In this document: piece by piece, positions 13,701-46,416 of the stretch
How the letters are laid out: each line of letters begins with the position of its first letter
Position numbering within the stretch: the first letter of the stretch is position 1
Position numbers and translations under genes: made by a program
Source: Symmachiella dynata
GTDB taxonomy: Bacteria > Planctomycetota > Planctomycetia > Planctomycetales > Planctomycetaceae
Assembly (NCBI RefSeq): GCF_007747995.1
Contig: NZ_CP036276.1
Location: 1,665,001-1,729,000 of the forward strand
Reading direction: 5' to 3'
Length of the DNA: 64,000 bases
Notes under the pieces: model-generated
Told to the model about the DNA's origin: nothing
What the model saw: the letters and a program-made list of their open reading frames with translations, nothing else
Databases searched by the model: none

Positions 13701-13756
13701 GCAAGGGGAAGTCGGTAGCAAACAAAAGGCGGGGAGGTTACACTGCCAGCCAACGG

Positions 13757-14647: not shown

Positions 14648-14824
14648 TATCGTGTCGCCCTGCCGGCAGGCCCGCCGCTCTGACGGTTTGGAGCTTTCGC
14701 TCGCCACTCCCGCTAGGGACTGGTTCTTCACTGCCGAGCGAACAGGAGGCCACAGCAGGGCAATGCCCGCTCTTCGAACCACGCACCTTCGACGGCGGGC
14801 CTTTTGTGGTATCATCCCGCCCCT
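14648..14824 (+). promoter_or_regulatory. Leader region before the TraD-like gene
   Basis: The 177-bp gap between the replication-relaxation-like gene and the TraD-like gene is longer than others in the module. It holds no gene. It could carry a promoter or an origin-like element, but I see no clear iterons or hairpin, so this is only a placement note. Confidence 0.25.
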
Positions 14825-17119
14825 ATGTTGTTTTCCGTCAGCGACACGCCACAGAACGAACGCGGTCCGAGGCACACCCGCTCGATTCTGGCGGCGATCC
14901 ATCATGCGTCGACAAAACGCACGCCAGTATCGTTGATCTTCGCGCGACACGATTCATCAGCCGGCCTGTTTTGTCGCGTTTCGGAGGACTTGAGCGGGCC
15001 TGTCCGGCGGCAGTTTCGCGCGAAGTATCCCGACTGCACGGTCGATGAATTAACCGATGACGCGCTTGCTCCGCAGTCGGGACAGATGACATGGACGATG
15101 CGGCTGCGGTTGCGGCCGGATCTGTTTCCGCTACTCCGCTATCAGCAGTTTCATGAAGCAACCGGAGATGAGGCCGATGATCCGGTCGGCGGAATTCTTC
15201 AGGCACTGGGTAGTGATGACGCTCAGGTCAGTTCCATGATTGAACTGAATCTGATTCCGGCATCGCGCCGACGCGTTGAACGGGCGCAGAACGCCGTTGC
15301 CAGACTGACTCGCCCGTTTTTTCGGTCGCACCGGTCAATAGCCCGTCGCTATGCAATGCTGGCCGCCAGCCCCCGAAGGTTCGACCGCTTCGCTGCATGG
15401 TGTCTGGCGAATCTTTTTGCCGGGCGGACCGACGAACGGCCCCTTGACGACGAGCTTTCCAAGACCGCCAGTCGTATGCATGACAGTGAAAAGGAACTGC
15501 AAGCGGCGGCACATAAGTTGGGCCAGCATCTGTTTGAGGTCGAACTTGTGCTCAGTGTATCAGCAAAAATCGAGCACGAAACTGCGGCAAATCTGAAGTT
15601 ACAGGAATTGGCGGCCGTTCTGAACAAATTCACGGTGCCACGATTTGGCGTGTTTCAGGCTTCCCAGATCAAGCAAAACCCGAGTCGGACGAAAGGGGAC
15701 CGGAAGTTCCGATTTTTGCTGTCTGACGAGGAAATCGCGTCGATCTGGCATCTGCCGACGAAAAGTGTGCGGGATACGTCGATGCAGGCGACGCGTTCGC
15801 GGCGGCTGGAACCGCCGGTCGGGTTACCCCTCAAGGAAAAGGAGCCAACGATTTGTGAATTGGGGCGGGTAGCGTTTCAGGAGCGGCGGGACCGGTTCGG
15901 GATCCGCAATGAGGACCGGTTACGCCATCAGTTTATCTGTGGAAAAACTGGGAATGGGAAGACAAGCGTTCTTTTCAACGCGATTGTCTCAGACATGCGT
16001 GCGGGGAATGGCGTTGCGGTGGTCGATCCGCATGGGGACCTCGCAGACTGTGTGTTGGCGTCGGTGCCCAGCTTTCGGACGAATGACGTGATACTGATCG
16101 ATCCGGCGGATTTCGCTTATCCGGTGAGTATCAATCCGCTTGACGTGGATGCATCGATGGCTGATCTCGCCTGCGACGGGATGGTGAGCACGTTTCGCAA
16201 GGTGTTCGGGACGGGCAATCACACGCCAAGGCTGGAAGATATTCTGTGGAACACGGTGCTGGCCCTGATGCTGGCCGGTGACTGCACGCTGTTGGACGTG
16301 CTCAGGATGTTCGGTCCGGATGATCGTTTCCGGACGGGGATTCTCAGCTGCGTCGGGAATCCCGTGGTCTGCAACTGGTGGCAGACGACTTTTCCGAAAC
16401 TGCAGGGGCTTCGGGGGGAAGATCCCTTTGCGTCGGTGGAGAACAAACTGCGTCAATTGCTCACGAACCCCGTGATCCGCAACATTGTGGCGCAGCCCCG
16501 CACGCGGGTGATTTTTCGTGAGGCGATGGATGCCGGCAGGATTTTGATCGTGAACCTCTCCAAAGGGAAACTCGGCGAGCGGACTTCGTCGTTTCTGGGA
16601 TCGCTAATCGTCACGCAGTTGCAGCTGGCGGCGATGAGCCGGGCGGACATTCCGGAAGCCGACCGACGCCCGTTCTATCTGTACGTCGACGAGTTCCACA
16701 ACGTGGCGACCTCCAGCTTCGCGTCGATCCTCAGCGAGGCCCGCAAATTCAAGCTGGGGCTCTGTCTGGCGACGCAGTTTCTGGATCAGGTGGATGACGT
16801 GACGCTGCAGGCCGTGATGGGAAATGTCGGTAGCCTTCTGGTCTTCGCCGTGGGTCCGAACGATGCCGATGTGCTGGCCGAGCAACTGGGTGGGAATGTG
16901 ACCGCGTCCGATCTGATCGCGCTGCCGAAATATAGAGCGTATGTGCGGTTGATGATTGACGGTGTGTCCCGTCCGGCATTCTCTATGGAGACGATCGAGC
17001 CAGGCGTAGTCGAAAACGCGGAGAGGGGAGTAATCGTTCGGGAGCAGTCCAGACGCCGATTTTCCACGTCAGTATATACGGTGGAGCATCACGTTTCATC
17101 GGTGCTCTCAACTTTGTAA
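14825..17119 (+). CDS. TraD/VirD4-like conjugative DNA-transfer ATPase (copy 1)
   Basis: The start at 14825 (MLFSVSDT) gives ~764 aa. The N-terminal ~340 residues are unrecognised. A P-loop follows with CGKTGNGKTS at about residues 372-381, then VVDPHGDLADCV. Walker B is LYVDEFHNV near residue 620, and LATQFLDQ is the sensor-type segment. The DPHGD motif and the order are those of type IV coupling proteins/TraM-recognition ATPases that pump DNA. No N-terminal membrane segment is obvious, so it may belong to the soluble, HerA/TraD-like group typical of element-encoded proteins paired with replication-relaxation genes. A shorter relative is at 39654-41513. Confidence 0.83.
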   Translation: MLFSVSDTPQNERGPRHTRSILAAIHHASTKRTPVSLIFARHDSSAGLFCRVSEDLSGPVRRQFRAKYPDCTVDELTDDALAPQSGQMTWTMRLRLRPDLFPLLRYQQFHEATGDEADDPVGGILQALGSDDAQVSSMIELNLIPASRRRVERAQNAVARLTRPFFRSHRSIARRYAMLAASPRRFDRFAAWCLANLFAGRTDERPLDDELSKTASRMHDSEKELQAAAHKLGQHLFEVELVLSVSAKIEHETAANLKLQELAAVLNKFTVPRFGVFQASQIKQNPSRTKGDRKFRFLLSDEEIASIWHLPTKSVRDTSMQATRSRRLEPPVGLPLKEKEPTICELGRVAFQERRDRFGIRNEDRLRHQFICGKTGNGKTSVLFNAIVSDMRAGNGVAVVDPHGDLADCVLASVPSFRTNDVILIDPADFAYPVSINPLDVDASMADLACDGMVSTFRKVFGTGNHTPRLEDILWNTVLALMLAGDCTLLDVLRMFGPDDRFRTGILSCVGNPVVCNWWQTTFPKLQGLRGEDPFASVENKLRQLLTNPVIRNIVAQPRTRVIFREAMDAGRILIVNLSKGKLGERTSSFLGSLIVTQLQLAAMSRADIPEADRRPFYLYVDEFHNVATSSFASILSEARKFKLGLCLATQFLDQVDDVTLQAVMGNVGSLLVFAVGPNDADVLAEQLGGNVTASDLIALPKYRAYVRLMIDGVSRPAFSMETIEPGVVENAERGVIVREQSRRRFSTSVYTVEHHVSSVLSTL

Positions 17120-27529: not shown

Positions 27530-27557
27530 ATGCATGATAATCGGTTCTATCATGCAT
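27530..27557. promoter_or_regulatory. 11-6-11 inverted repeat, candidate recombination core or operator
   Basis: ATGCATGATAA - tcggtt - CTATCATGCAT: the two 11-bp arms are inverted repeats matching at 10 of 11 positions around a 6-bp spacer. It lies immediately before the first credible starts (27563, 27614) of the tyrosine recombinase. Arm and spacer lengths equal those of Xer/dif-like core sites. An autoregulatory operator is the main alternative. Confidence 0.5.
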
Positions 27558-27562
27558 CACGT

Positions 27563-28729
27563 ATGGCACGACAAGACAACCACCGAATTGAATCAGACGT
27601 GAGCAATCACAAAATGTCAGAACCGTTCGCTAGCAGATCCCTCAGCACGCCTCAATCCCCCACCCCGCAACTTGACAACCTGCCTCCCATCTTGTCGGGT
27701 CGCTCCACAGTCGCTGTGGAGCGAAATGTCGGTGAATTCTATCTGTCGATTGCCGACATCTTCGAACGCTGGATCGCCCGTCGATCGAGCCCACACACTA
27801 AGCGGAGCTATCGGCAGGACGTAGCCTCATTCATCGAGTTCCGCGGCATAAGATGGCCCGAAGAGTCGACGATGTTGTTGCGAGTTTCGGTCGCCGACAT
27901 TCAGGCTTGGCGCGATGAAATGGTCCAAGGAGAGTATGCTCCCAAGACCATTAGCCGCCGCATCTCGTCCCTTTCGTCGTTCTACCGCTTCCTGCAAGGA
28001 GTGGCCGCAGAATTGCGGTTGCCGATCACCGTGCCGAATCCCGCACACGCCCAGTTTATCGGACGATCGGGAACCGATCCCCTGTATGAAACGAAGGCTC
28101 TCAGCGCCAGGCAGGCACGGCAATTGATGGGATTGCCAATTGGGGAGAGCCTGATTGGCTATCGCGATCGGGCGATCTTGAAGTTCTTCCTGTATAGCGG
28201 AGCCCGCATCGGAACCGGTTGTCGTCTCAAGGTCTGCGACATCCATCGTGACCGAGAGGAAACGACAATTCGACTGCACGAAAAGGGTGGCAAGCGCCGC
28301 ACGATCGGTTTGCACGTTGCGGCAGCGGAAGCAATCACCGAATACGTTGACACGGCCGGAATCTCCAACGGCCCACTGTTTCGACCCCGTCTGAATTCCC
28401 GCAGCTGTCAGCTGGCGAATCGCCCAATGCACACCGCGACGATGTACCGCATCATTCAGGGATATCTGAGCCAATTACCGGGGACAATGCAGCCCGTCAC
28501 CGATACCGGCGGCCATCCACCAGAATCTGATCATCCCAACGCAAGATTTCGATGCGTCTATACGCCGCACTCCCTGCGTGCCACGACCGCGACGTTACTG
28601 CTCGACGCCAAGGTGGACATTATGAAGGTCAAAGAACTCCTCGGCCACCGCCACGTCACGACCACGCAAATCTACGACAAACGCCGCCTAGCGACGAAAG
28701 AGAGTGCCAGCCACGACGTGCCGATTTAG
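27563..28729 (+). CDS. Tyrosine recombinase (XerC/integrase family)
   Basis: The product is ~388 aa from ATG 27563 (MARQDNHR) or ~371 aa from 27614 (MSEPFASR); the ATG at 27530 lies in the inverted repeat. A core-binding SAM-like domain spans residues ~50-160 (FERWIARRSSPHTKRSYRQD). The catalytic set is present: Arg in LYSGARIGTGCRL, Lys in HEKGGKRRTIG, HxxR in PHSLRATTAT, His in LGHRHVTTTQ and the nucleophile Tyr in IYDKR. It should be active. The adjacent 11-6-11 repeat may be its site. It probably integrates or resolves mobile region 1; the partner site was not found. Confidence 0.88.
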   Translation: MARQDNHRIESDVSNHKMSEPFASRSLSTPQSPTPQLDNLPPILSGRSTVAVERNVGEFYLSIADIFERWIARRSSPHTKRSYRQDVASFIEFRGIRWPEESTMLLRVSVADIQAWRDEMVQGEYAPKTISRRISSLSSFYRFLQGVAAELRLPITVPNPAHAQFIGRSGTDPLYETKALSARQARQLMGLPIGESLIGYRDRAILKFFLYSGARIGTGCRLKVCDIHRDREETTIRLHEKGGKRRTIGLHVAAAEAITEYVDTAGISNGPLFRPRLNSRSCQLANRPMHTATMYRIIQGYLSQLPGTMQPVTDTGGHPPESDHPNARFRCVYTPHSLRATTATLLLDAKVDIMKVKELLGHRHVTTTQIYDKRRLATKESASHDVPI

Positions 28730-29983: not shown

Positions 29984-30290
29984 CCTCCATTCGATAAGGA
30001 ATTTGGATGTCCACAGCTCGACAGGGAAATGCTTGACCCCAGGATGCCTGATGTGGCATTGTGTACACGTGTCAGCGCCAGTCCAACTGTGGGCGTTGAT
30101 ACACCGAGCGGGGCCGCCCCCAGCGGTCCCCGCTCACCTCAGCAACGTCGCTGAGGCCAACGCTTGTTCGCTGGAATGATTCGTTCGCGTGTATGGGAAA
30201 TCACCGGGATTGCTTACGGTTTGTGGGACTTTGAACGAAATGGATAGCTTTGGACGAGATTAATCAACTTTGAATGGCTTGGAGGTTTGG
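29984..30290. other. Intergenic region upstream of the NACHT gene, with large hairpin
   Basis: About 300 bp without a gene between divergent transcription units, so it should contain promoters for both. The outer arms GAGCGGGG (30105-30112) and CCCCGCTC (30127-30134) pair perfectly; the inner CCGC and GCGG also pair, with one bulged base. A hairpin at this place could attenuate or regulate the NTPase gene. No T-tract follows, so it is not a standard terminator. Confidence 0.4.
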
Positions 30291-33050
30291 GTGGAGAAGA
30301 AATACAAGCCCGATGCGAATGCGTTTGAGTCCTATTTCACTGGACAGTTCGGCCTAATGAATCTTAGTCAGCTCCACAGAAAACGATTTAAAGGGCTATT
30401 GAGCAAAACAATGCTGTCGAGCGTGAAAAACGGTCACGAGGTTACCGCCCGTACGATCAACGTGGTCGCACATGTTTTTCGTGTTCCACCTGCAAACCTA
30501 GTTCACCCAAGCGATGTCGCACGGTTTCTCACTGACTACCCAGATGGGGATAAACCACGCCCTGATCCAGATAGTTCGCCTAATGAGGGAAACGAGGCGG
30601 CAAGACAGATTTCAACAACGACGGGTAAGTCTGATGCTGATTCATGTCTCTCACAGGTATCAACAATCGAAACCGTTATTGACTTTCTAGAACGGTTAGT
30701 CTTGAACGGGTTCAGAGAAAACGTTGTGTACTTACCGCCAAACCTCACGCCGGGCGACGGTAATTCAAGCAAACCAGACGCGCGAGGTGCAATCGACAAT
30801 TTGGCACACTTCTGCCTGCCGGTGCGAGTAATCGAGCAGGACGATTGGCAGCGGTTGGACCACCAGCGGGCTGCGCCATTGCGTTCGCGAAGTTGGAATG
30901 CGGCACACGTTCGAAACCGCATTGTTTCGACAAGCGAAGACTTTTGTCGAATAGATGGCGAGCGGCAAACGCAACCACAGCCACTGGAGTCAGTTCTTGC
31001 GTCTAACCGACACGTCATCCTGCGAGGCGAGCCGGGCGAAGGAAAGACGACATCGCTGTTCCTGCATGTTGTTAAGCAGTGTCGCGAATTGGCGGCGGGA
31101 TTGTGCAGTGGGCAATTCGACCACTTAAGCGAAGAGTGCCGTATTCCGCTGCCATTGCCGCTCGGGAAGGCTGCGCCGACCAAAGAAGACGAATCGTTTT
31201 GTGTCGTTGACAGAGCACGAGATGAAGCCTTGCGAATCGCATATGGACAGGTGGAGAAAGCTCCACACGAAGTCACAGAATGGATTAAAGAAAAGGTGTT
31301 GCGCAACGAAGTTGACCTCTGCCTGGATGCCCTAGACGAGTTGGATATCCGCTGGCACGAATCACTTCGTAAAGAACTGGTGCACTGTAGCGGAATGGGT
31401 ATTTTTCTGACGACGCGAACGTCTGCTGACGATACGAACGTTATTGCGACTGATGTCTGTCATCGCTATCACCTCGTCAGTTTTGGCCCGGCACAAGTTC
31501 GGGAATACATCAAGCGATTCTTTTCGCAAGCCGAGAAGAGGGGCGAACAACTTTCTCGCGAACTTCGCGATCAACTGAGACTTTCGCATGGACTTCAGGA
31601 ATTAGCTCAACTTCCATTGTTATTGGCCTTGCTGTGCCAGTGGTTATCCGCCCGATGGCAGTGGCAGCTCACAGAGATCCGAAGGGACATCCCAAAGAAT
31701 CGCACAACGCTGCTTAGGGACGCACTGCATCAATTGATGGAACGCGGAGATGCCAAGCATCGCGGGATGCCCGTTTCCCAGTCGCCGAGCGAACGAAATA
31801 GAATCAAAGAGACCGTCCTGAGGCATGTCGCTTGGAGATTCTTTGCCGCCGGACCACTGCCAATCGTGAAGCAGGACCTCATTGCGGTCTTGGAACAACA
31901 CCTTGAACATTCTGTGTGGAAGGGATATGCGCCGCCGCACAACGCCGAGGCGTTACTCACAGAATTTTTGGAAGACGGCGTACTCGTGCGCCAGAACCGA
32001 GGCATTTATCGTTTTGTACTTCGCGCTTTTCATGAATTCTGTGTCGCCGAATGGATCTTATTTGAATTGCGAAATTGTAGTCGTGTTTTTAAGACACGCC
32101 ACTACGTGAGAAGGGTTTGCGGTAATGCCATGACCTGGGGTCGCCGCGACTGGCCTCGGTCGCTTCAACCGATTGCCGAACCCGGCTGGAGTGCGATTTG
32201 GCTATTGGTGGGTGAGCAGTTAAAGGGCAAAGAAGTTGCTTTGTTTTTTCGGGCGATCCGCCGGTATCTAAATCCAATCGCCGATCCATATGCGATTCTA
32301 CTTCACGTTCTAAAAGGGGCCTGGCCGTTGGACTGGCCACTTAATACCTCTGACGAGTATCCTGTAATGGAACTGGGAGCACGTGTTTGTGGGGAAACCG
32401 AGAGTTCATGGGGAGCGAAAGCATATGTATCCCGCTTAATCCGCTTGACGAAACACTACTGTTTCAAGGACAAGGTACCATACTTTCTAGCAATGACACG
32501 TAAAGAACGTGCATTGGCATGCCTGATTCGTATCGTTCGTGATAACTCAATTGACGTGCAAATTCGATATCAGTGTGCGCAAGCCTTGGGACTATCGGAC
32601 TCGACCGAAGTACGCAAGGATCTTTTGTCCGTGTCGTACCAAATAGATGACGGTACGCTACGATCTATTTGCACGGAATCTCTAGTCCGGCTTTGCCGAT
32701 ATGGTGACGATGAGTCCATCGAATTGCTTTATACGCTGTTGCTTCATGGTGGCGATACACAGGCCAACCTCCAACACACGGTTGACATGCTTGTGGAAAT
32801 CGACACAGTTGCTTCAGTTAAGGCAATTAAAAAGGCCGTAGCGGCAGCCGCCGACGGCTACGTGAGGTATCTCTGCATCCACCGCTTAGCAAGACTTGGC
32901 CACTCTGAAATGGCGGATCTTCTTGGCAGGATTGACGCCGAAATAAGACGGCAATTGAATCTGGGCGCCCGTGGCTACGTTACTCTGCTAAAGTTTGTCA
33001 CGTTGCAATTAACGAGGAAAATGAACGAACGCAATACAAAGACGAAATGA
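30291..33050 (+). CDS. NACHT-type STAND NTPase, putative antiphage protein
   Basis: The start is GTG at 30291, chosen because GGAGG lies five bases upstream; TTG at 30270 has none. The ~919-aa protein begins with an HTH-like region (LSKTMLSSVKNGHEVTART and VVAHVFRVPPANLV), similar to XRE folds. The NTPase core has Walker A GEPGEGKT (~246-253), Walker B DLCLDALDELD and a sensor FLTTRTSA. A winged-helix part and HEAT/TPR-like helical repeats follow (QIRYQCAQALGLSDSTEVRK). STAND/NACHT proteins of bacteria sense phage and trigger abortive infection. No separate effector domain is obvious; the HTH-like head or a partner may serve. Lower GC than neighbours suggests recent acquisition. Confidence 0.8.
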   Translation: MEKKYKPDANAFESYFTGQFGLMNLSQLHRKRFKGLLSKTMLSSVKNGHEVTARTINVVAHVFRVPPANLVHPSDVARFLTDYPDGDKPRPDPDSSPNEGNEAARQISTTTGKSDADSCLSQVSTIETVIDFLERLVLNGFRENVVYLPPNLTPGDGNSSKPDARGAIDNLAHFCLPVRVIEQDDWQRLDHQRAAPLRSRSWNAAHVRNRIVSTSEDFCRIDGERQTQPQPLESVLASNRHVILRGEPGEGKTTSLFLHVVKQCRELAAGLCSGQFDHLSEECRIPLPLPLGKAAPTKEDESFCVVDRARDEALRIAYGQVEKAPHEVTEWIKEKVLRNEVDLCLDALDELDIRWHESLRKELVHCSGMGIFLTTRTSADDTNVIATDVCHRYHLVSFGPAQVREYIKRFFSQAEKRGEQLSRELRDQLRLSHGLQELAQLPLLLALLCQWLSARWQWQLTEIRRDIPKNRTTLLRDALHQLMERGDAKHRGMPVSQSPSERNRIKETVLRHVAWRFFAAGPLPIVKQDLIAVLEQHLEHSVWKGYAPPHNAEALLTEFLEDGVLVRQNRGIYRFVLRAFHEFCVAEWILFELRNCSRVFKTRHYVRRVCGNAMTWGRRDWPRSLQPIAEPGWSAIWLLVGEQLKGKEVALFFRAIRRYLNPIADPYAILLHVLKGAWPLDWPLNTSDEYPVMELGARVCGETESSWGAKAYVSRLIRLTKHYCFKDKVPYFLAMTRKERALACLIRIVRDNSIDVQIRYQCAQALGLSDSTEVRKDLLSVSYQIDDGTLRSICTESLVRLCRYGDDESIELLYTLLLHGGDTQANLQHTVDMLVEIDTVASVKAIKKAVAAAADGYVRYLCIHRLARLGHSEMADLLGRIDAEIRRQLNLGARGYVTLLKFVTLQLTRKMNERNTKTK

Positions 33051-34474: not shown

Positions 34475-34555
34475 ATTTTGTACTTGCGATTCCGCAAGCA
34501 CGTTGGGTTCCAAAATCGCCCTACTCAAGGCTTAGAAAAAAAGAGAGGAGATGTG

Positions 34556-34855
34556 ATGACTTCAAATCGAGCTGAAGGTGAGACCGCCACATCGACCGAT
34601 GCGCCGGCATCCCCAGATTGGAAGCGATCGATGGCGGGCAATTCCGTCGCAATCTTCAAAAGTGACGCGAGTGACGAACACGGCGGAAACAGGACACAGA
34701 CTTCGATCTACGTGCAGAGACGGATTCGGAATCGAGAAAATGGAGAGTGGACGAACGCCAAGTACTTCTATCCGTCTGACATCCCGATTCTGCGCGCTTT
34801 GCTAGCGGCGGCTGAACAGCATTTGCTCGCCAGCGATACCGACGTTCCCAGCTGA
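34556..34855 (+). CDS. Small protein, possible ssDNA-binding-like fold
   Basis: ATG at 34556 follows GAGAGGAG. The 99-aa product has SVAIFKSDASDEHGG, then TSIYVQRRIRNRENGEWTNA, then PSDIPILRALLAAAEQHLL. That is beta-hairpins rich in basic and aromatic residues followed by one helix, a layout shared with small ssDNA-binding/transcription-cofactor (PC4/PUR-like) proteins of mobile elements. The similarity is by pattern only. The first ~35 residues are Ser/Thr-rich and likely flexible. It lies upstream of further small genes and the E2/JAB/E1 cassette. Confidence 0.55.
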   Translation: MTSNRAEGETATSTDAPASPDWKRSMAGNSVAIFKSDASDEHGGNRTQTSIYVQRRIRNRENGEWTNAKYFYPSDIPILRALLAAAEQHLLASDTDVPS

Positions 34856-35845: not shown

Positions 35846-36079
35846 ATGAAAATCGAAATTCTCGGACGAGAAGCAAGCGGTACCTGTGACGTCACACAAA
35901 AGAAAGACACGCTGGTCTACGTGATTCGCGTGGGTGGCCCGGACGGCGTCGAAAAACGGGTCTGTAAGTCCCGCCTGATCGAGGTGATCGACTGGAACTG
36001 CGACCTTCCGGAGAGCAGTCCGGCGACGGCAAAACAGCCGCAACCGTCTCGCGAACCGTGTGGCGCGAAAGGCAATTAG
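35846..36079 (+). CDS. 77-aa protein preceding the E2-like gene, modifier candidate by position only
   Basis: The product starts MKIEILGREASG with GGCGGAGAC upstream. About 50 residues are beta-rich (DTLVYVIRVGGPDGVEKRV, KSRLIEVIDWNC), followed by a flexible Pro/Ser/Gln tail ending PCGAKGN. It overlaps almost into the E2-like gene (2-bp gap). In ubiquitin-like operons a small beta-grasp modifier is usual at this place, but I see no C-terminal GG and cannot confirm the fold. Another possibility is an SH3-like adaptor. Confidence 0.5.
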   Translation: MKIEILGREASGTCDVTQKKDTLVYVIRVGGPDGVEKRVCKSRLIEVIDWNCDLPESSPATAKQPQPSREPCGAKGN

Positions 36080-36081
36080 TG

Positions 36082-36405
36082 ATGGCCATCGTCAAGCATT
36101 ATCGCCATACGGAAACGGGGCACGAATACTCATTCCGTTTCGAAAAGCACGGAGAAACGTGGAAGGTGTTTTGCCTCAAGCACCCGCCGAACCCCCATAA
36201 GGGATCGAGCGTCGTGACGCACATATTTTCCGACGGCCGATTGTGCATCACGCACCCGCCCCAATCGGCCGAACAAGCGGCGGCGGCGGCGTTCCGCTGG
36301 ATGCACGGCTACAGCACGTTCGTCCTCTCAGGGAAATTCCCCAACGACGCCTGCCGCGCCGTCGTGCCCGATTACAACGACGCCCCCGAATGGAACTCGG
36401 GCTGA
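36082..36405 (+). CDS. Prokaryotic E2-like (UBC-fold) conjugating protein
   Basis: The 107-aa product from ATG 36082 has the order expected for bacterial E2-like domains. Beta strands (YSFRFEKHGETWKVFCLKHP) come first. HIFSDGRLCIT follows, with H47 and C55 at the places of the E2 His and catalytic Cys. A helix with AFRWMHGYSTFVLSGKFPN then matches the W..xYxxW..G(K/E)WP tail of E2 proteins from CBASS-type and related operons. E2s receive a ubiquitin-like modifier from an E1 on the Cys and pass it to a target. The E1 and a JAMM peptidase are encoded 1-1.5 kb downstream. Assignment is by pattern, without a structural comparison. Confidence 0.6.
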   Translation: MAIVKHYRHTETGHEYSFRFEKHGETWKVFCLKHPPNPHKGSSVVTHIFSDGRLCITHPPQSAEQAAAAAFRWMHGYSTFVLSGKFPNDACRAVVPDYNDAPEWNSG

Positions 36406-36672
36406 CCACTAGCAGTAAAGACACCGGTGTTCGTGTCGCCGCTCGATGCTTGCGGCTCTCTCGTCGAGATCGGCGACGGTTGCCCAGGAGAGACCGATTG
36501 ATCCAGGAGGCTGACAATGAGACGTCAATGCATGGGAATTGAAGAAATTCCTGACGGAACTCTTCACTGACCGAGTCAACTTCAGTGTGCCTGTGTGCAC
36601 ACATCGCCACGGGAGAACTGTTCTCCCGTGGTCTGCTCTTCACCTCAATTCGTTCAACTTACGGAGGTTTTG
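36406..36672 (+). other. Gap between the two E2-like genes
   Basis: A 267-bp gap that contains no gene with support. ACGGAGG lies close before the next start. The palindromic cgggagaac...gttctcccg at about 36609-36630 could be a terminator-like hairpin or regulatory element. Confidence 0.35.
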
Positions 36673-37044
36673 ATGGAAGCACTCATTCTGTTGGGCATCT
36701 GCTGCGGAATCATTGGGGGAATCGCTGCGGCGGCCTGTTGCGCCAACTCTTCGGTCATCAAGTATCGCTGCCGGATCGGCAATCGGTCGTATGAGTTTGA
36801 CATCAAGCGGCGGCCGAACGGCACCTTTGACATTTATTCCCGGAACAGGCCGCCGAATCGCCGCTTCAGCAACTCCCCCGCCAAGGCGCACGTCTACTCC
36901 AACGGGAAAGTCTCCGTCACGGCTGGGCATGCGCCCCGTTCGCTCGATCAAGCCAAGGCGATCGCCAAGCATTGGGCGACAGGCTACCACTCGTACTTGA
37001 GCAGTGGAGTCTTTTTTAACGGGCCGGCGCGCATGCGGGTTTGA
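36673..37044 (+). CDS. Membrane-anchored E2-like paralogue lacking the catalytic Cys
   Basis: ATG at 36673 follows GGAGG. The 123-aa product starts with a hydrophobic segment (LILLGICCGIIGGIAAAACC), then a domain that aligns with the E2-like protein at 36082. RPPNRRF...AHVYSNGKVSVT corresponds to HPPNPHK...THIFSDGRLCIT, and KHWATGYHSYLSSGVFFN to FRWMHGYSTFVLSGKFPN. The position of the catalytic Cys55 holds Ser81. It therefore looks like a catalytically inactive E2-variant tethered to the membrane, comparable in concept to eukaryotic UEV proteins. It could place the modification machinery at the envelope. Confidence 0.6.
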   Translation: MEALILLGICCGIIGGIAAAACCANSSVIKYRCRIGNRSYEFDIKRRPNGTFDIYSRNRPPNRRFSNSPAKAHVYSNGKVSVTAGHAPRSLDQAKAIAKHWATGYHSYLSSGVFFNGPARMRV

Positions 37045-37123
37045 CTATTTTTTTGTTCAAGGTGTCGCAACAAAGCGATGCGACGCCCTTTCTCGAAAAC
37101 CAAATTTATCAGGATACCTTGCG

Positions 37124-37813
37124 ATGTTTCCAAATGACCTCATGAACCGTGATCTCCCGTCACGTGAACGACAGGAGGAATCAATTTCGGCGTCCGGATC
37201 GGCCGACTATGGCTGGCCTGGGCCCGCCGCTCTTCCGCTTTTTCCGCGCCCCCAACTGCCGGAAATTGGCCAGGAGTCCGAGTGCGAGAATTCTCTGGCA
37301 CAGCCAGATGAAGATCACGGCAGCACGGCGCAATTCCCTTGGTTTCAAGCGGACCGGGTGGCGCGACGATCACCGCCAAGGCTGGTTTTTCGAATCACGC
37401 AGTCCTGTTTCCGTGAAACGTTGGAATACCTCGGCCGTCGGCCCCCCGAACAGGCGGGACTACTCTTCGGCCCGAAGGATGATCCGACGCTGGTTACCCA
37501 CTTCATCGCCGAACGAGGCGGTCACTCGACGAGTGTAACCTTCTCGATCAATGCGCACTTTTGCAACGTTTGGCTCCGCAAATTCAAGGCGGCCCATATG
37601 ACGTGTCTGGGCGTGTGCCATTCTCACCCCGCAGGCGTTCACACCCCCAGCGGGGGAGACATCGTATTTCTTGAAAAACTTTTTGCGCGGCCGAAGAACA
37701 CGGATGCGGGGTACGTCCTCCTACCGATCGTTTGCCACGGCCGCTTCTATCCCTATGTGATTCACCAGTCCAGGCCGCACGACGTGTTGATTCCCGAACT
37801 GGTTCTCGTCTGA
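37124..37813 (+). CDS. JAMM/JAB-domain isopeptidase-like protein
   Basis: The ATG at 37124 (MFPNDLMNRD) is used; ATG 37142 is an alternative. The first ~80 residues are Pro-rich and likely disordered. The C-terminal ~145 residues form a JAB/MPN domain. E109 lies in PPEQAGLLFG. The metal motif is CHSHPAGVHTPSGGD, with H166, H168, S176 and D179. The complete JAMM signature indicates an active zinc isopeptidase that trims or removes a ubiquitin-like modifier. The E1 starts 49 bp downstream. PRTRC, CBASS Cap3 and Bil operons contain analogous JAB proteins. Confidence 0.85.
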   Translation: MFPNDLMNRDLPSRERQEESISASGSADYGWPGPAALPLFPRPQLPEIGQESECENSLAQPDEDHGSTAQFPWFQADRVARRSPPRLVFRITQSCFRETLEYLGRRPPEQAGLLFGPKDDPTLVTHFIAERGGHSTSVTFSINAHFCNVWLRKFKAAHMTCLGVCHSHPAGVHTPSGGDIVFLEKLFARPKNTDAGYVLLPIVCHGRFYPYVIHQSRPHDVLIPELVLV

Positions 37814-37862
37814 ACACCGCAACTGTTTGTCTTTTGAACATTACCGAAAGGACGGTCGTACC

Positions 37863-38909
37863 ATGATTGATTTACGACGACTCAAACAGACGCTCGATAC
37901 GGAAAAGCTTCGCCATGCCACGGTCGGGATCTTCGGCCTGGGAGGTGGGACCGATTTTGCCGTCGACTTAGCGCGAAACGGTGTGGGCAACTTTCGTTTG
38001 ACGGACCTGGATGTTGTGGGGGCTGAAAACATCGCCCGCCAAGGTTTTCAGCAGGCCGACGTGGGGACCCCCAAGGTGAAAGCGACGGCAAAGAAGATCA
38101 AAGCCGTCAACGCGGAAGCCTCGGTCCTCTACTTCCACATGGATTGTACGAAGCTGACGGATGAAGAGGCGGACGCCCTGTTTGGGGACTGCGATGTGCT
38201 CATCGCCGCCACCGACAACCTCGAAGCACAAGTCTGGATCAACCGGCTCGCATTACGCGACGGCATCCCCGCCGTGTGGGTGGGGCTCTATCCGTCCGGC
38301 GCTGCGGGGGAGATCATCTTCTGGAAGCCGGGGCTCGACTGCTACCACTGTTTGTGCGAGCACCGCATCCGCAAACACGAAGCCGCCGCCGAAGAGCGGC
38401 GTTCGCTTGACCCTCCCAGCGACGGCGTGACTCGATTTGACGTGGGGATCGTGGACGCGATTGCGGGGCACATCGTGCTGGGGCTGCTGACGGAAGGGAG
38501 TGACAACCGCTTCGGCCGGTTGATCGAACGCTTGGGCGACCGAAACTTCTTGCAGATCAAGCTCGATCCGGACTGGCAGCTCAACGGCCGCGATGTGATT
38601 CGCCGGGGATTGGGCATCGCCGAGGAGTGCGATGCCTACATCTCGTGGTGCACAATCGCCTGTCGTAACGGCGCCACGCTGATGCCATGCCGCGATTGTG
38701 TTGAGTTGCGGGGTCACCGCTTTGAAGAGACGAACTGTGGGGAGTTCTCGGTTTTCCACCGCACCGACTATGGAGTCGATCGCGATCTGGTCGGCGGCAA
38801 AGAATTATCGGCGGCAGCCGATGAAACAACCCCTCAAGAAGAGGAAGCGGAGTCGGTGAGCAAACGAGCTGCGGACGATCCTCAGGTCGAGCAGGAACTG
38901 GGTTTCTGA
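37863..38909 (+). CDS. E1/ThiF-family modifier-activating enzyme
   Basis: ATG at 37863 follows AAAGGAC. The 348-aa protein has the nucleotide-binding GIFGLGGGTDFAVDLARNG. The E1 core LTDLDVVGAENIARQGF contains the D, the R and the Q of the adenylation site, followed by GTPKVKATAKKI. IAATDNLEAQVWINRLA is the second D-N motif. Two Cys pairs, DCYHCLC and MPCRDC, are the usual zinc ligands or catalytic Cys. It should adenylate the C-terminus of a small modifier and hand it to a thiol. The C-terminal ~40 residues are acidic and flexible. It follows the JAMM gene in the same direction. Confidence 0.88.
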   Translation: MIDLRRLKQTLDTEKLRHATVGIFGLGGGTDFAVDLARNGVGNFRLTDLDVVGAENIARQGFQQADVGTPKVKATAKKIKAVNAEASVLYFHMDCTKLTDEEADALFGDCDVLIAATDNLEAQVWINRLALRDGIPAVWVGLYPSGAAGEIIFWKPGLDCYHCLCEHRIRKHEAAAEERRSLDPPSDGVTRFDVGIVDAIAGHIVLGLLTEGSDNRFGRLIERLGDRNFLQIKLDPDWQLNGRDVIRRGLGIAEECDAYISWCTIACRNGATLMPCRDCVELRGHRFEETNCGEFSVFHRTDYGVDRDLVGGKELSAAADETTPQEEEAESVSKRAADDPQVEQELGF

Positions 38910-38915
38910 GGGGGT

Positions 38916-39566
38916 ATGGTGATGGAATTGATCATTGCGTCAGCCGTCTTGTTAGCGGCAGCCGGCTACGGCATCTACCGCAACTATAGCCGCCTGCGGC
39001 GAAACCGTCGGCAACGCCGGTGGCAGCACGAGCAACGTCGACGGCAGCAGGTGAGAGAGGCAGCCGCACGCAGGCGTGCGGCCGCCGAGAAGCTGCGGCG
39101 CTTAAATGCGATTGCCCGCAACCTGCAATTGGCCCTCATGCAAATCAATAACGCGCGGGACTTTCAACGGGCTGCGTCGTGGGCGGCCAAGGCGCAAGGA
39201 TTACCGGCCGGGTTTCACCAAAGGCAGTTTCGGCGATTCCGCTCGCGGCTGCGCGACCATGCCCTCAATCGTATCGTTGCCGGTGAGAATCCCGAGCAGG
39301 TGCACGATTCGCTGCAGTCGCTGGTTCGCAATCTCGGCATCGCCGAGTTCGAGGCCGACTACTTGATGGCGGAAGTGCTCGACCGGCAGCCCCAGCGCCG
39401 CGATGCCAACGGCGCCTTCGAGAACCAATTGCGGCAGTCGCACGACGAGCACCGGCGGCGGATGGAAGTCCTGCACAACATGGAAGGTCTCGACGAGGAC
39501 ATCCGAGAACAGTTGCTGGAAGCGGAACTGGGACGGTTCCGTTCGCGGTTGTTTGGCGAGGTGTGA
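38916..39566 (+). CDS. Membrane-anchored basic coiled-coil protein
   Basis: The 216-aa product starts with one hydrophobic segment (LIIASAVLLAAAGYGIY), then a very Arg-rich helix (RLRRNRRQRRWQHEQRRRQQ). Further charged helices follow to the end (AFENQLRQSHDEHRRRMEVL). It begins 6 bp after the E1 stop, so is in the same operon. A membrane-tethered helix with a basic face could bind DNA or the TraD-like ATPase next to it. It could also recruit the conjugation enzymes to the membrane. No family is recognised. Confidence 0.6.
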   Translation: MVMELIIASAVLLAAAGYGIYRNYSRLRRNRRQRRWQHEQRRRQQVREAAARRRAAAEKLRRLNAIARNLQLALMQINNARDFQRAASWAAKAQGLPAGFHQRQFRRFRSRLRDHALNRIVAGENPEQVHDSLQSLVRNLGIAEFEADYLMAEVLDRQPQRRDANGAFENQLRQSHDEHRRRMEVLHNMEGLDEDIREQLLEAELGRFRSRLFGEV

Positions 39567-39653
39567 CGGCATTCGTGACACCAATCTGGCACCGGCAATC
39601 AGCCGGCTTTCCGAAGACTTTGGATTCACAACCTGCTGAAGGGGAAATTTCCA

Positions 39654-41513
39654 TTGAAACGACTGCTCCCGAAACAGACAGCCAGAGTGCTGCGGTCAGC
39701 CCTGACCGACGACAACATGGGGGCCGGCATCCAGTTGAGCGGTGTGAGTGGGTCGGGGAAATCGCGTCTGCTGGTCTGGATCGTGTTCACGTTTCTTTCG
39801 CTGGGAATTCCAGGCCTATTTCTGGACCCGCACGGGGACGCGGTCGCTTTGCTTCGGCGAATGACGCTCACACTTCCCCGCCGGCGGCGCAAAAAGATCT
39901 GGTTTTGGAGACCGGCCGACGGCGATTGTACGGCCGGCATCAACCCGTTCCTGTTTCGGGAGGAGGGATTGAGCAGTTACCAGCGGGCTGCCCGGCTCCG
40001 CGTTCGCTCGGAGCTGTTTTCGAGCATCGTGCTGTCGGACTACGGCGAGACAGAATTCGCCGGCCGGACACGCTTGCGGAAGCACTTCTCGCGGACCACC
40101 ACGATTTGCGGAGAAAGCCGTCTACCCCCCGCGTTCACGACACTGCTGGTCGATACGCAAAGCCCGCTGTATCCCCTGCTGTGCCAGCTGGCTCCCGACG
40201 AAATGGACCGCTACCAGATGGAGATGATCGCCGCCATGCGCCCGGCCGATCAGGAGGCCGAGGTCGGCAGCCTGCGAAACCGGCTGATGAGCACGCTCGG
40301 TCATCCCACATCTGATATGCTGTTCTCACGTTGGGACAATGTGATCGATTTCGAGTACCTCTACGACAACGACATCACGTTATTGGTCGACCTCTCCAAA
40401 CTGGACCTGCTAACCGACGGCGTGCAGCAACTACTGGCCAATACGACTCTGCTGTGCATGCAGTCGGTCGTGATGTCGAAGCCGGAGCACGAGCGACGAC
40501 GACGATTCTGTGCCCTCGATGAGCTACCCCTATTCGCATCGAGCTTCCCGCTGCTGCAAACGCAGTGCACCGAAATCCGCAAGTTCTGCACCAAGTACGT
40601 CTTTAGTCACCAGGGAAGCGCCCGCTTTCCCGGACGGCATGACAACGAATTTCTCAACACGCTCACCGACATGTGCCGTTTGCACGTTTTCTTTCGGCAC
40701 GGTGCGGGCGATGCGAAGTTTTTTGGGGAGCAGATTTCGCTGTCCAACTGGAATAAGAAGAACAAGGTCAAACACATTCAGCGCACGCCTCAGCAATTTA
40801 CCGAGGGGCACGAGATCGTAGAACTGACCGACCACGCGACGGCGAACGGCGACACCAGCGGGACGGCCGAGATGGGCGGCACGACCAACCAGATTAGTGA
40901 AGCCTTACAGACGGCCGCCGACGCGGCCCGTATGTCACGGACCAGCGGACACTCCGACGCCCGGCAGCATACGCAGACTCGCACCGACAATCGCACGCAC
41001 ACCGAAACCACAACCTGGAAGCAAACCTTGGTTCCGAAGGTCGTCACCCGCGACGTCGTCACGGCGATCCAATTCTATACGCCGGAGGAACTGGACCGCG
41101 AGGATGCTGCGCGGATCCGTGAATTCGACACCCGCGAGGCTTTCCTGTTGATCGACGGGTTGGCGACCTATGAAATCCAAACACCCAAGGTGACCGATCC
41201 CTACGCGACCACGCCCCGTTTCGCACGGCGGAAGCTGAATGAATGGTTTCAGCGGCAAATCGCCAATCGCCCTGAGTTTTCGACGCCGTTGGAGATTGAA
41301 CGGGAACGGCAGGCCTTTCTGGAGAGGCTCATCAGCGAATTGCAGCGGATGGCCTACGAACGGCCACGGGGAACGATTGTCGCTCCGTCCCGGTTGCTGA
41401 TCCAGCCGCAGGCGACGCTCATTCTGCCAGATGATGCAGCGGCCGACAGGCAGCGTCCTGAATCACAGAACGATGTCGCGAAGGAGGCCACCGATGCCCC
41501 GTGGGAAATCTAA
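39654..41513 (+). CDS. TraD/VirD4-like ATPase (copy 2)
   Basis: A TTG start at 39654 follows GAAGGGGAAA; no ATG exists between the in-frame stop at 39576 and the P-loop. The 619-aa protein has Walker A GVSGSGKSR (30-38), LFLDPHGDAVALL as the DPHGD motif, and Walker B FCALDELPLF near residue 285. SHQGSARFPGR supplies the sensor-type segment. A Thr/His-rich stretch (RQHTQTRTDNRTHTETTTW) follows. It lacks the long N-terminal half of the copy at 14825, so it is the ATPase core only. It ends overlapping the next gene by 20 bp. Confidence 0.8.
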   Translation: MKRLLPKQTARVLRSALTDDNMGAGIQLSGVSGSGKSRLLVWIVFTFLSLGIPGLFLDPHGDAVALLRRMTLTLPRRRRKKIWFWRPADGDCTAGINPFLFREEGLSSYQRAARLRVRSELFSSIVLSDYGETEFAGRTRLRKHFSRTTTICGESRLPPAFTTLLVDTQSPLYPLLCQLAPDEMDRYQMEMIAAMRPADQEAEVGSLRNRLMSTLGHPTSDMLFSRWDNVIDFEYLYDNDITLLVDLSKLDLLTDGVQQLLANTTLLCMQSVVMSKPEHERRRRFCALDELPLFASSFPLLQTQCTEIRKFCTKYVFSHQGSARFPGRHDNEFLNTLTDMCRLHVFFRHGAGDAKFFGEQISLSNWNKKNKVKHIQRTPQQFTEGHEIVELTDHATANGDTSGTAEMGGTTNQISEALQTAADAARMSRTSGHSDARQHTQTRTDNRTHTETTTWKQTLVPKVVTRDVVTAIQFYTPEELDREDAARIREFDTREAFLLIDGLATYEIQTPKVTDPYATTPRFARRKLNEWFQRQIANRPEFSTPLEIERERQAFLERLISELQRMAYERPRGTIVAPSRLLIQPQATLILPDDAAADRQRPESQNDVAKEATDAPWEI

Positions 41514-42462
41514 CATTGTGCCGTCCCCGATTCGGTTGCTGCCGGCCCACATCGAGCAGTTGCAGACGCTCGGTGAAGTCGAACTGCTCGACTCGGACGA
41601 TTTCGGTTCACGGTTTTATCCGAACGATAGGACGGGCCAATCCTATCGCCGGCGGTTGCGGCTCTACACGCAGCACGGCCTCCTGCAACGGATCGAGCTA
41701 CCGCTCGTATCGACCGGACGACAAGGGAGATTACCAAATATTTACCGGCTGACTCCCAAGGGGGCGGACCTGCTGGAACAGGAAACTGGCCAGCGGCCTC
41801 CACGATATGCCCGCAGCGATCCGCCGCGCCAATCCCACACTTGGCTGCACCGGCTCGGCATCGCGAAGATTCAGCTCAGCTTCAACGACGCCTGTGCCCA
41901 GGCGGGTCTGCCCAAGCCGGACTGGCTGCTGGAGTACGACACGCTGCCGGAGGCAAAGATCAATGGGCCGATGTCCGAGCGGTTCGTTCTGTGCCACCAG
42001 TTTCCGTTGGCCAACGGCAAAAAGCTCACCGCTTGGCCGGATGCGGCCGCCCTGTTGCGCGTACCTCAAGCCGGGCAGATTTGGCGGCTGGGACTGTTTG
42101 TCGAGTACGACCGTTCGACGGAAACGCACACGCAGCTTAACGGCACGAAGCGGTCGCACGCCGGAAACGGCAAGCTTGACGGCTACAGTGCGTTGTTGAA
42201 GACAGGTGAATACCAACAATATTGGCCAGACGCCGACGGCGTGCGCATCCTATTCGTCGTCCGCTCCGAAGGCCGGCTGCGGAATATCGCTGAGACGTTC
42301 CGCGATCACGGGGTGGCCGATTCCGTGCGGTTTGCCGTTGAGGCGGAGATGACACCCGAGCGGGTTCTCAATTCACAGATTTGGCGAACAATCGACGGTG
42401 AAAGACGCAGTATCATTCGCGGCAGCACAAGCACGGTGCGAGATTCCGATGCAACTTCTTAG
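41494..42462 (+). CDS. Replication-relaxation family protein (copy 2)
   Basis: ATG at 41494 (MPRGKSNIVPSP) follows AAGGAGG and lies inside the end of the TraD-like gene. The 322-aa protein has the two-part layout of the copy at 13757. A winged-helix start (RLRLYTQHGLLQRIEL, IYRLTPKGADLLEQE) is followed by a C-terminal half with LGLFVEYDRSTET and IRILFVVRSEGRLRNI-like strands. The FVEYDRSTE site is equivalent to CIELDNSTET of copy 1. These proteins act on origin DNA of plasmids and integrative elements. Confidence 0.72.
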   Translation: MPRGKSNIVPSPIRLLPAHIEQLQTLGEVELLDSDDFGSRFYPNDRTGQSYRRRLRLYTQHGLLQRIELPLVSTGRQGRLPNIYRLTPKGADLLEQETGQRPPRYARSDPPRQSHTWLHRLGIAKIQLSFNDACAQAGLPKPDWLLEYDTLPEAKINGPMSERFVLCHQFPLANGKKLTAWPDAAALLRVPQAGQIWRLGLFVEYDRSTETHTQLNGTKRSHAGNGKLDGYSALLKTGEYQQYWPDADGVRILFVVRSEGRLRNIAETFRDHGVADSVRFAVEAEMTPERVLNSQIWRTIDGERRSIIRGSTSTVRDSDATS

Positions 42463-42748
42463 TATTGAAGAGGCGGCACGGATGCTCGGCTATACGACAA
42501 AAGGACTCAGAAAAATCATTGATAGATCGCGTGCCAAAGCGAACGGCGCGCACACGTCCGGACCGACCATCCGCTTTTTCCAGACAAGCAAAGGGGCACC
42601 CATCAAATTCAAATCTGAATGGATAGAAGAATTTGTCGAAAGGCACACGATAGAACCAGAGGCCGCGCCATCCATTCGAAAAAAGCAACACAAGAAGGAG
42701 AAGCAAGTCCCGGCCTATGGGCTTGATCCGCAATTCTTCGACGTGTGA
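42449..42748 (+). CDS. Excisionase/MerR-like HTH protein
   Basis: The ATG at 42449 gives 99 aa, overlapping the previous gene by 14 bp. LLSIEEAARMLGYTTKGLRKIIDRSR is an HTH_17 type motif, and RFFQTSKGAPIKFKSEWIEEFVER its recognition helix and wing. Such proteins bind DNA as excisionases or plasmid regulators. The integrase gene starts just beyond on the opposite strand, its 3' end only 4 bp away, consistent with an int/xis pair. The C-terminal tail is basic (RKKQHKKEKQ). Confidence 0.68.
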   Translation: MQLLSIEEAARMLGYTTKGLRKIIDRSRAKANGAHTSGPTIRFFQTSKGAPIKFKSEWIEEFVERHTIEPEAAPSIRKKQHKKEKQVPAYGLDPQFFDV

Positions 42749-42752
42749 TTAA

Positions 42753-43934
42753 TCAGACCGCCTCCCAGAGCGGATCGTTGTCGATTTCGCTCCACTGCAG
42801 ATAATGCTCACGGCAGACTTGCGGTGTGTTTCCCATCAACCGTGCCAACGTCTCGATATTCGTCGGTTTGCCGGACCAATACCCTTGCAGAATCCGTTTT
42901 GCGAATGTATGCCGGCACGAATACATACAGCAGTCCTTGTCGAGTTCAACTCCTTGCTGGGATAGCCGCTTCTTGAGCGTACGGAAGCGCTGCGACAGAT
43001 TTCGCCGTTCCCAAGGCGTTCCCACGCTGTTGCGGAAGATCGGGCCTTGTGAAAATTGCTCGGCGCATACCCGTGTGATTTCCATAACGCCCGGATCGGT
43101 GATCCGAATTACGCGTTTCCTGCGGTTCTTGATCTCACTCGGTTTGAAAACCCATTCCATACGATCACCGTGATCAACAATGTGTTCTTTGGTCAGCTTG
43201 GCAAACTCGGAACCGAAGCGTGCCCCCGTCCGTATGCAAACACGAATTGCAGTTTCCAATTGGGGATTCGCATGCTCGTACATGGCCTGTTCTTGCTCTG
43301 GCGTGATATAAGTCACCCTGCTGTTGGAACGGGCGAGCTTGTAGCCCCGAATCGGATTGCTTGCGATCATATCTCGTTCGACTCCGAAGTTCAGTGCGCG
43401 CTTGACAGCCTGAACGCGGGTACGGCATCCACCGTTCCAATTCTCGTGAGCAGACAGCCACTCATCGATGTGCGCCCAATTCAACTCGGCAGCCGGTAAA
43501 TTCCCAAATCCGGGATGAATCCGTTTGTTTGACATCTCGGCTCTCTGCTCCCGCGTGAGCCGTTTCGGACCGCTGCCGTCCTTTTTTCGGTATTCGGGTG
43601 GCAGCCCAAAGCAGAAATCGAAGAGAGTATCGGCACGATCGAAATGAGTTTTTTCGGCTCCGTTGGTCTTTGCATATCGGAGGTAGGCCAAGCAAACGTC
43701 CAGCACCGTGATGTCGTTCTGAACCTCGACAGCAGTTTGCTTGTCCAACAGAAATCGGGCATACGCTTGCTTCAAATCCTGATCATCGGCCAATTGAACT
43801 TTGATATGTTCGCCGTTTTCGTCACGCAACGGGAGCATATTGTGCCTGCTTGAGACGTACCAACCCCGACTTTTTCGGAAGAAATACCCCTTGTTACGGC
43901 TCCCCTTCTTGCGACCCCCACGTTTTTTTGCCAT
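42753..43934 (-). CDS. Tyrosine integrase beside tRNA-Arg
   Basis: The ATG at 43934 (MAKKRGGRKKG) gives 393 aa; further extension crosses the tRNA and is rejected. The N-terminus is basic. A SAM-like core-binding region spans the middle (ELNWAHIDEWLSAHENW). The catalytic set is Arg in IRTGARFGSEFAKL, Lys in SEIKNRRKRVI, the HxxR-type CRHTFAKR, and Tyr in REHYLQWSEI; the usual LGH motif reads LMGNTPQ, so the second active-site His is replaced by Asn. It ends 4 bp from the excisionase-like gene and starts ~110 bp before tRNA-Arg, the normal place for an integrase that uses a tRNA as attachment site. Confidence 0.85.
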   Translation of the reverse strand: MAKKRGGRKKGSRNKGYFFRKSRGWYVSSRHNMLPLRDENGEHIKVQLADDQDLKQAYARFLLDKQTAVEVQNDITVLDVCLAYLRYAKTNGAEKTHFDRADTLFDFCFGLPPEYRKKDGSGPKRLTREQRAEMSNKRIHPGFGNLPAAELNWAHIDEWLSAHENWNGGCRTRVQAVKRALNFGVERDMIASNPIRGYKLARSNSRVTYITPEQEQAMYEHANPQLETAIRVCIRTGARFGSEFAKLTKEHIVDHGDRMEWVFKPSEIKNRRKRVIRITDPGVMEITRVCAEQFSQGPIFRNSVGTPWERRNLSQRFRTLKKRLSQQGVELDKDCCMYSCRHTFAKRILQGYWSGKPTNIETLARLMGNTPQVCREHYLQWSEIDNDPLWEAV

Positions 43935-44042: not shown

Positions 44043-44202
<160 letters not shown>

Positions 44203-46037: not shown

Positions 46038-46158
46038 GAACGAATAATTCCCAATCCCACAAATTGGAGAAGACTTTCAAGTGCAGTTTAGGCGTGAATC
46101 GGCGGTCCCCAGGGACTGCTTTGTTCGTGCGTCTATCGTCGCTGTGTTGAGTTGCTAC
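46038..46158. other. Spacer before the partial tRNA copy
   Basis: About 120 bp. The left part is the trailer of the PAS/HTH-like gene. The last bases (gttgagttgctac) replace the acceptor and D-arm of the second tRNA-Arg copy. No gene is seen. Confidence 0.3.
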
Positions 46159-46307
46159 CTCAATTGGATAGAGCATCGGTCTACGAAACCGAAGGTTAGT
46201 GGTTCGAATCCACTGAGGTGTACTTCTTCTTGCTTCGCCACGCTGGCGAGGCAACCCGCTGCCGACGCATGTGGTGGCATTGCGACTTTATCCGACTGCT
46301 GCGGATT
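46159..46307 (+). repeat. Direct repeat copy 2: partial tRNA-Arg (pseudo-tRNA) and flank
   Basis: From ctcaattgg on, the sequence matches the tRNA-Arg at 44045 (anticodon loop and T-arm identical, 3' acceptor gaggtgt instead of ggggtgt) and its flank, with a few changes. The 5' acceptor strand and positions 8-9 of the tRNA are missing, so it cannot fold as a tRNA. It is a degenerate copy or attachment-site relic. The spacing between the two copies is ~2.1 kb. Confidence 0.75.
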
Positions 46308-46416
46308 GACAAAATTGATCGTTTCCGAGAACACGACATCAGCTGGCTATTGTGCTAGCCAGTGTAAGCCCCACAGTCTCCAGTCCGCGACATCCATTAT
46401 TTCGTAATATCGTGGT

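Follow-up and report, generated by a model that had tools for sequence, protein, structure and literature searches.

What does a set of ubiquitin-type enzymes do inside the DNA-transfer operon of a planctomycete mobile element? The question is raised by a locus within 64,000 nucleotides of the Symmachiella dynata genome (NZ_CP036276.1, positions 1,665,001 to 1,729,000; hereafter the window), where one plus-strand array encodes, in this order, a small protein, two E2-like proteins (E2a and E2b), a JAMM (JAB) peptidase, an E1/ThiF enzyme, a membrane coiled-coil protein (CC), a TrwB-like coupling ATPase (TraD), a Replic_Relax protein (RR) and an excisionase-like (xis-like) protein. We consider the chances to be about even that these genes form a working E1-E2-JAMM conjugation and deconjugation set, carried as an exchangeable cassette in the transfer operon of planctomycete integrative elements and acting as proposed below. 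This reading builds on direct observations: the gene order, the UBC-like model of an E2, conserved JAMM and ATP sites, the missing conserved cysteine of E1 and the linkage to TraD and RR.

Conservation of the gene order

All reported open reading frames (ORFs) were present where the preliminary description, made from the sequence alone, had placed them, in a single plus-strand array (window 35846-42748), and most of the array starts were preceded by a Shine-Dalgarno-like sequence. Further loci were located with E1 homologues (45-48% identity, two relatives) and then with CC profile searches, which yielded nine (L022, L023, L036, L037, L038, L039, L040, L041 and L042); the last four correspond to two loci in each of two genomes of one genus. 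An eleventh locus (L115), belonging to a different family and showing the complete order of small gene, E2, JAB, E1, CC, TraD and RR, came to light when 398 genomes of the class were searched with an E2 profile.

The order E2-JAB-E1-CC-TraD-RR was identical in 11/11 loci, i.e., in the window and in ten other planctomycete loci; given identical genes in identical order at eleven places, the array is not due to chance. The small gene was located 5' of E2 everywhere except in L023, whose contig starts just ahead of the E2 gene. The profile search for this order that had been suggested in the preliminary description thus found it in ten further planctomycete loci, and the coupling to DNA-transfer genes described there turned out to be constant in all eleven, within a mobile element. 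Close relatives of CC and E1 were confined to the window's family in a sample of the phylum (392 genomes), which indicates that the gene set is rare.

Cassettes containing CC were never found away from a TraD-RR operon, all 11 loci lying inside one. Further, no relatives of E1, TraD or CC were detected in viral contigs, in plasmids CC had no match and E1 matched generic ThiF-type proteins only, and a scan of genome contigs with narrow patterns returned nothing beyond the two loci known by then.

The E2 proteins

E2a was modelled with AlphaFold2 from 12 homologues (pLDDT 80). The top solved match of the model was the E2 of the CBASS CdnG-E2 complex (8hsb_B; Z 6.5, root-mean-square deviation 2.5, 88 residues aligned), and the 50 structure rows listed were all E2, UEV or UFC1. 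E2a is accordingly modelled with a UBC-like fold, a similarity at the fold level only (Z below 8) and no proof of activity. The proposal that the protein starting at 36082 is E2-like had been made to depend on its predicted structure, and that structure came out UBC-like. An E2 sequence-profile search against solved structures returned nothing relevant.

The putative active-site cysteine follows an HxxxxGxhC-like motif and is C55 in the GRLCIT of E2a. H47 was invariant in 20 E2 sequences, and the cysteine was present in every copy examined save the window's E2b, which has a serine (in L117 and L118 the aligner displaced the cysteine by a few columns). Nine of the 11 loci encode a single E2. 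L038 encodes two, both with the cysteine and one with a transmembrane segment, and the single E2 of L036 may also be anchored in this way. Judging by these sequences, membrane anchoring of E2 recurs and loss of the cysteine does not. Since all E2s of the family but E2b have kept it, the "inactive membrane E2" is a local loss and not a feature of the system. The protein starting at 36673 did prove E2-like and Cys-less when aligned to E2a, but a Cys-less membrane E2 is not a conserved component, as the loss is restricted to the window copy and the L038 paralogue retains its cysteine.

The JAMM peptidase and the E1 enzyme

The JAMM peptidase (Prok-JAB, 29.2 bits vs. a cut-off of 25) shows the zinc-site pattern E ... 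HxHP ... S..D, whose ligands were invariant in ten JABs and correspond to E109, H166, H168, S176 and D179 in the window. Its best solved relative was PfJAMM1 (5ld9). The E1 enzyme (ThiF, PF00899, 114 bits vs. 28) retained the ATP-site residues N56, Q60, K71 and D118, which were invariant in an alignment of 12 E1s including fused JAB-E1 relatives; the best profile match was UBA5 (E 9e-21), followed by MoeB and ThiF. Both a complete JAMM isopeptidase, with all its ligands conserved, and an E1/ThiF enzyme had been recognised earlier, and both assignments stand.

The lack of a conserved catalytic cysteine in E1 had gone unnoticed in the preliminary description. In alignments of 10 and 12 sequences no such residue was found, the only invariant cysteines being the four of the CxxC motifs (C160, C163, C276 and C279), which form a zinc site in relatives and probably bind Zn here. 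By this measure, the E1 of the window is not a canonical thioester-forming enzyme. A serine, S186, was invariant in 12/12 E1s, including the distant JAB-E1 fusions; from the UBA5 and MoeB sequences, we take it to lie near the catalytic-Cys site of other E1s.

The small protein and the question of the modifier

No ubiquitin-like protein (UBL) family was recognised among the operon proteins in Pfam or NCBIfam, a search that covers the operon; a diverged UBL may be encoded elsewhere in the island. The small protein was considered as a modifier and rejected. Its structure prediction, which had been proposed earlier for this 77-aa protein, together with the alignment, gave a beta-beta-beta-alpha topology (residues 1-52) followed by a disordered tail, which is not UBL-like and had no confident match in fold searches; its C-termini are not conserved, and it occurs in cassette-free elements. 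The gene also lies 5' of TraD in two loci devoid of E1, E2 and JAB (L085 and L086), and is therefore part of the transfer backbone and not of the enzyme cassette: its location at the head of the array was described correctly, its membership of the conjugation set was not.

A conserved Gly or GG ending was also absent from the C-termini of the remaining conserved proteins, in line with the earlier statement that no obvious modifier with a C-terminal GG is present. ThiS-family proteins of the host were encoded in all eight module-bearing genomes that were searched. A precedent for UBL-less conjugation exists in CBASS, where a non-UBL protein is conjugated via its C-terminus (PMC10097602).

The transfer backbone and cassette exchange

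Strong CC profile matches were found solely adjoining TraD, and CC is probably a partner of the ATPase. The window's TraD-like protein scored under the TrwB cut-off (18.4 vs. 20.5 bits), its L085 homologue, 35% identical, cleared it (41.2 bits), and RR was above the Replic_Relax cut-off (51 vs. 25 bits). TraD homologues comprised the module-bearing set and a few module-free elements. In L085 and L086, the order is small gene, trypsin-like protease, membrane proteins and then TraD and RR, with the protease (Trypsin_2; L085:7060-7860 and L086:11052-11825) in the slot that otherwise holds E2-JAB-E1. The region from the small gene to TraD is therefore an exchangeable slot. A homology between CC and the membrane proteins preceding TraD in these two loci was tested with hhalign and not established.

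The trees of E1, JAB and CC were broadly congruent, and those of TraD and RR mixed module-bearing and module-free elements. Related E2s were found at seven further places, at most of which a fused JAB-E1 lies beside E2, with TraD absent. From these stand-alone sets it follows that E2-JAB-E1 forms an independent unit, which was either recruited into the elements or departed from them. The neighbours of the stand-alone sets vary: a 70-76 aa protein with a GYTD motif follows the small E2 and fused JAB-E1 in L116 and L118, and an AAA ATPase follows E2 and JAB-E1 in L120, L121 encoding a protein similar to it. In L120, moreover, a second JAB-E1 adjoins a Prok-E2_E protein.

Two side observations concern the backbone proteins. 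The tails of TraD (window 41486-41510 and homologues) often show an acidic D-x-P stretch and a hydrophobic end (DAPWEI, DADPRVTL, GDPEVTF), and the E1 tails of L023, L036 and L038 end much as TraD tails do. The Replic_Relax homologues (window 41494-42462) share a PD ... ExD ... K pattern that, as an impression from the alignment, recalls PD-(D/E)XK nucleases.

Proposed mechanism and alternative explanations

Only the modifier is missing from an otherwise complete and conserved enzyme set. From these data, we infer an enzymatic activity, a donor, a target and a role for the cassette. E1 would adenylate the C-terminus of a protein, and the activated carboxyl would pass from the Cys-less E1 to C55 of E2, either directly or via the invariant E1 serine. 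E2, membrane-anchored in some copies, would then conjugate the donor to a target close to the coupling complex that CC and the TraD-like ATPase form at the membrane, and the JAMM enzyme would undo the conjugation. As no UBL was recognised in the operon, there would be two candidate donors: a ThiS/MoaD-type protein of the host or, following the CBASS example, a conserved element protein that is not a UBL and is joined through its C-terminus. We judge regulation of the element's own transfer machinery to be the likeliest role, with defence as a near-equal rival; the swap with the protease slot and the defence-rich island are compatible with both. A more specific version, a cascade with no ubiquitin-like modifier and no E1 cysteine in which E1 activates the C-terminus of the coupling ATPase or of another backbone protein and E2 joins it to membrane or host proteins, reversibly switching conjugative transfer, is unlikely in that precise form.

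Several results weigh against a working conjugation set devoted to transfer. The Z-scores of the E2s are modest (about 4 to 6.5, a range that the comparison tool rates as common), and Foldseek alone gave no match with E below 0.8 for the E2a model. No modifier was identified, and the C-termini of the conserved proteins are without the Gly/Ala ending seen in CBASS. Further, TraD and RR also occur without the cassette (L085 and L086), which, together with the conflict between cassette and backbone trees, indicates that the cassette is dispensable for transfer and may be cargo. Finally, bacterial E1/E2/JAB systems with a tested function are mostly anti-phage (PMC10097602, PMC11354881).

This last point also speaks for the strongest alternative, which we regard as possible but short of probable: an anti-phage or anti-plasmid module in a variable slot that, on infection, conjugates a protein to phage or host targets, as do CBASS, Bil and related systems. 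The Trypsin_2 protease that fills the slot in L085 and L086 has a domain that obtains scores with three PADLOC defence models (LmuA, RT-Protease and Avs1b), the island also encodes a NACHT-HEAT protein and a type IIG restriction-modification-like enzyme, and related E2 plus JAB-E1 operons exist without TraD. However, all 11 full cassettes with CC lie inside a TraD-RR operon and none was found elsewhere, and the operon proteins include no recognised effector, sensor or nucleotide cyclase. It is much less probable that E1 and JAB carry out sulfur transfer, forming a thiocarboxylate on a host ThiS/MoaD-like carrier as do MoeB, ThiF and CysO/Mec, with the E2-like protein as an adaptor. An E1 without a conserved catalytic cysteine resembles an adenylation-only enzyme, and the eight genomes searched all offer ThiS-family carriers, but the E2 cysteine is conserved in all copies but one, Pfam and NCBIfam revealed no sulfurtransferase or rhodanese domain in the operon, and the link to DNA-transfer genes is constant. 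Least probable of all is a decaying window copy, regulatory or non-functional in an otherwise functional family, since E2b is indeed the sole Cys-less E2 of the family but the remaining catalytic residues are intact, the frames are open and the starts have ribosome-binding-like sites.

The bacterial E1/E2/JAMM systems of known function are mostly anti-phage, whereas all full copies found here join the three enzymes to a coupling ATPase for DNA. If active, the cassette would bring ubiquitin-type chemistry into DNA transfer, or into a defence that travels with transfer operons, and would offer a test of whether the E1-to-E2 hand-over can dispense with an E1 thioester. It is small and suited to direct expression and testing.

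The island and its other genes

A 19-bp repeat of the start of tRNA-Arg marks both ends of the element. In a genome of the same genus (G001), this tRNA is found with the right flank and without the insert, and the sequence on its left corresponds to genome position 1642607, at a distance of 66 kb. The empty site and the repeat therefore place the window up to 44063 inside a 66.5-kb island at tRNA-Arg, comprising window 1-44063 and genome 1642589-1665000 (L053, L054) and reaching 22 kb left of the window. With an integrase gene adjoining tRNA-Arg, the island has the features by which an integrative element is recognised, namely an integrase, direct repeats at a tRNA and an empty site in a relative. 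Direct repeats were not detected when part of the window was searched alone, as the left end is situated 22 kb beyond the window.

A second module (window 12498-17116 and 27530-28726) encodes a Toprim protein, a TrwB-like ATPase and Replic_Relax, together with another tyrosine integrase; the island is possibly composite. No type IV secretion mating-pore genes were found among the larger island ORFs scanned. A NACHT protein with HEAT repeats (window 30270-33050) is a possible NLR-like defence gene, and the type IIG enzyme lies in the left part of the island (L053:2581-5607), near a PHP-domain protein and an adenylosuccinate synthetase-like protein (L053:11495-12553). A partial second copy of tRNA-Arg (44045-44200 and 46155-46310) flanks a 2.1-kb stretch with a GNAT gene, possibly a remnant of another integration.

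Neither E2a, E2b, the small protein nor CC matched a Pfam or NCBIfam family above cut-off, and the sole E2 match in PADLOC was a weak one for E2a (E 0.03). The approx. 99-aa protein encoded upstream of the operon had no Pfam match; it has counterparts in L085 and L086 too, judged by eye, and gives the impression of a PC4-like ssDNA-binding pattern.

Table 1. Features of the transfer operon and the right end of the island (window coordinates)
Feature	Position	Strand	Basis
Approx. 99-aa protein upstream of the operon; backbone gene	34553..34855	+	Homologues at equivalent position in L036, L037
Small protein, 77 aa; backbone gene	35846..36079	+	Alignment, AlphaFold2 model, presence in L085/L086
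E2a, minimal UBC-like E2, putative catalytic C55, invariant H47	36082..36405	+	AlphaFold2 model, structure comparison, alignments
E2b, E2 paralogue, N-terminal transmembrane segment, Ser replacing Cys	36673..37044	+	Alignment
JAMM/JAB metallopeptidase; low-complexity N-terminal part	37124..37813	+	Pfam Prok-JAB, invariant residues
E1/ThiF adenylating enzyme, 348 aa, one ThiF domain	37863..38909	+	Pfam ThiF, alignments
CC, N-terminal transmembrane segment and coiled coil, conserved C-terminal helical region	38916..39566	+	Alignment
TrwB/TraD-like coupling ATPase, Walker A GVSGSGKS, Walker B DE (289-290)	39654..41513	+	Pfam, alignment
Replic_Relax protein (RR)	about 41494..42462	+	Pfam PF13814, alignment
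Excisionase-like helix-turn-helix protein (xis-like)	about 42449..42748	+	HTH_17, E 0.0016, under cut-off
Tyrosine-recombinase-like integrase	42753..43934	-	Similar to L022 integrase; no Pfam match
Right attachment repeat GCACCCCTAGCTCAATTGG, 5' part of tRNA-Arg (44045-44119)	44045..44063	.	Left copy at genome 1642589-1642607, outside the window

Comparison with known systems

The E1 of the window resembles UBA5, MoeB and ThiF in being a single-domain adenylating enzyme with a CxxC...CxxC arrangement. UBA5 and ThiF use a catalytic cysteine, which is not conserved in the window's E1 family. Like PRTRC (type 6d of Iyer et al.), the cassette has separate JAB, E1 and E2 genes on mobile DNA. Unlike it, no UBL with a C-terminal Gly was recognised, and E1 failed the PRTRC_ThiF model (26.2 bits, cut-off 144.75). 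Separate E1, E2 and JAMM genes are shared with BilABCD as well. Bil, however, includes a UBL of two domains (BilA), and its E1 comprises two adenylation domains plus a Cys domain (PMC11354881), in contrast to the 348-aa E1 of the window, with one ThiF domain and no conserved cysteine, and to the lack of a recognised UBL.

Type II CBASS Cap2/Cap3 (Iyer type 6b) likewise has E2, E1 and JAMM parts and no UBL, and the E2 of its CdnG-E2 complex (8hsb) is the one most like the E2a model. There, E2 and E1 are fused (Cap2), whereas the window has separate genes and is without a CD-NTase, an effector, a conserved Gly/Ala C-terminus and the E1 cysteine. Scans of the operon proteins against Pfam, NCBIfam and PADLOC recognised no CD-NTase, effector or sensor, and the earlier statement that no CD-NTase and no PRTRC ParB-type gene is visible was borne out, a PRTRC set being absent.

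The planctomycete operons with E2 and a fused JAB-E1 (L116, L118-L122) encode homologous E2, E1 (25-32% identical to that of the window) and JAB proteins, and their E1s share the invariant serine, the four CxxC cysteines and the lack of a conserved catalytic cysteine. They differ in the fusion of JAB with E1 and in having no adjoining TraD, CC or small gene. A JAB-E1 fusion is known as type 6e, published with a polyUbl (PMC1779556), which was not seen in these operons. No description of the gene set of the window was found in the literature covered, which did not include the E1 survey of Burroughs 2009. None of the operon types described by Iyer et al. 2006 combines separate E2, JAB and E1 genes with CC and TraD in a UBL-free arrangement (PMC1779556), and we therefore consider that of the window to be a new UBL-less variant of the bacterial E1/E2/JAMM systems.

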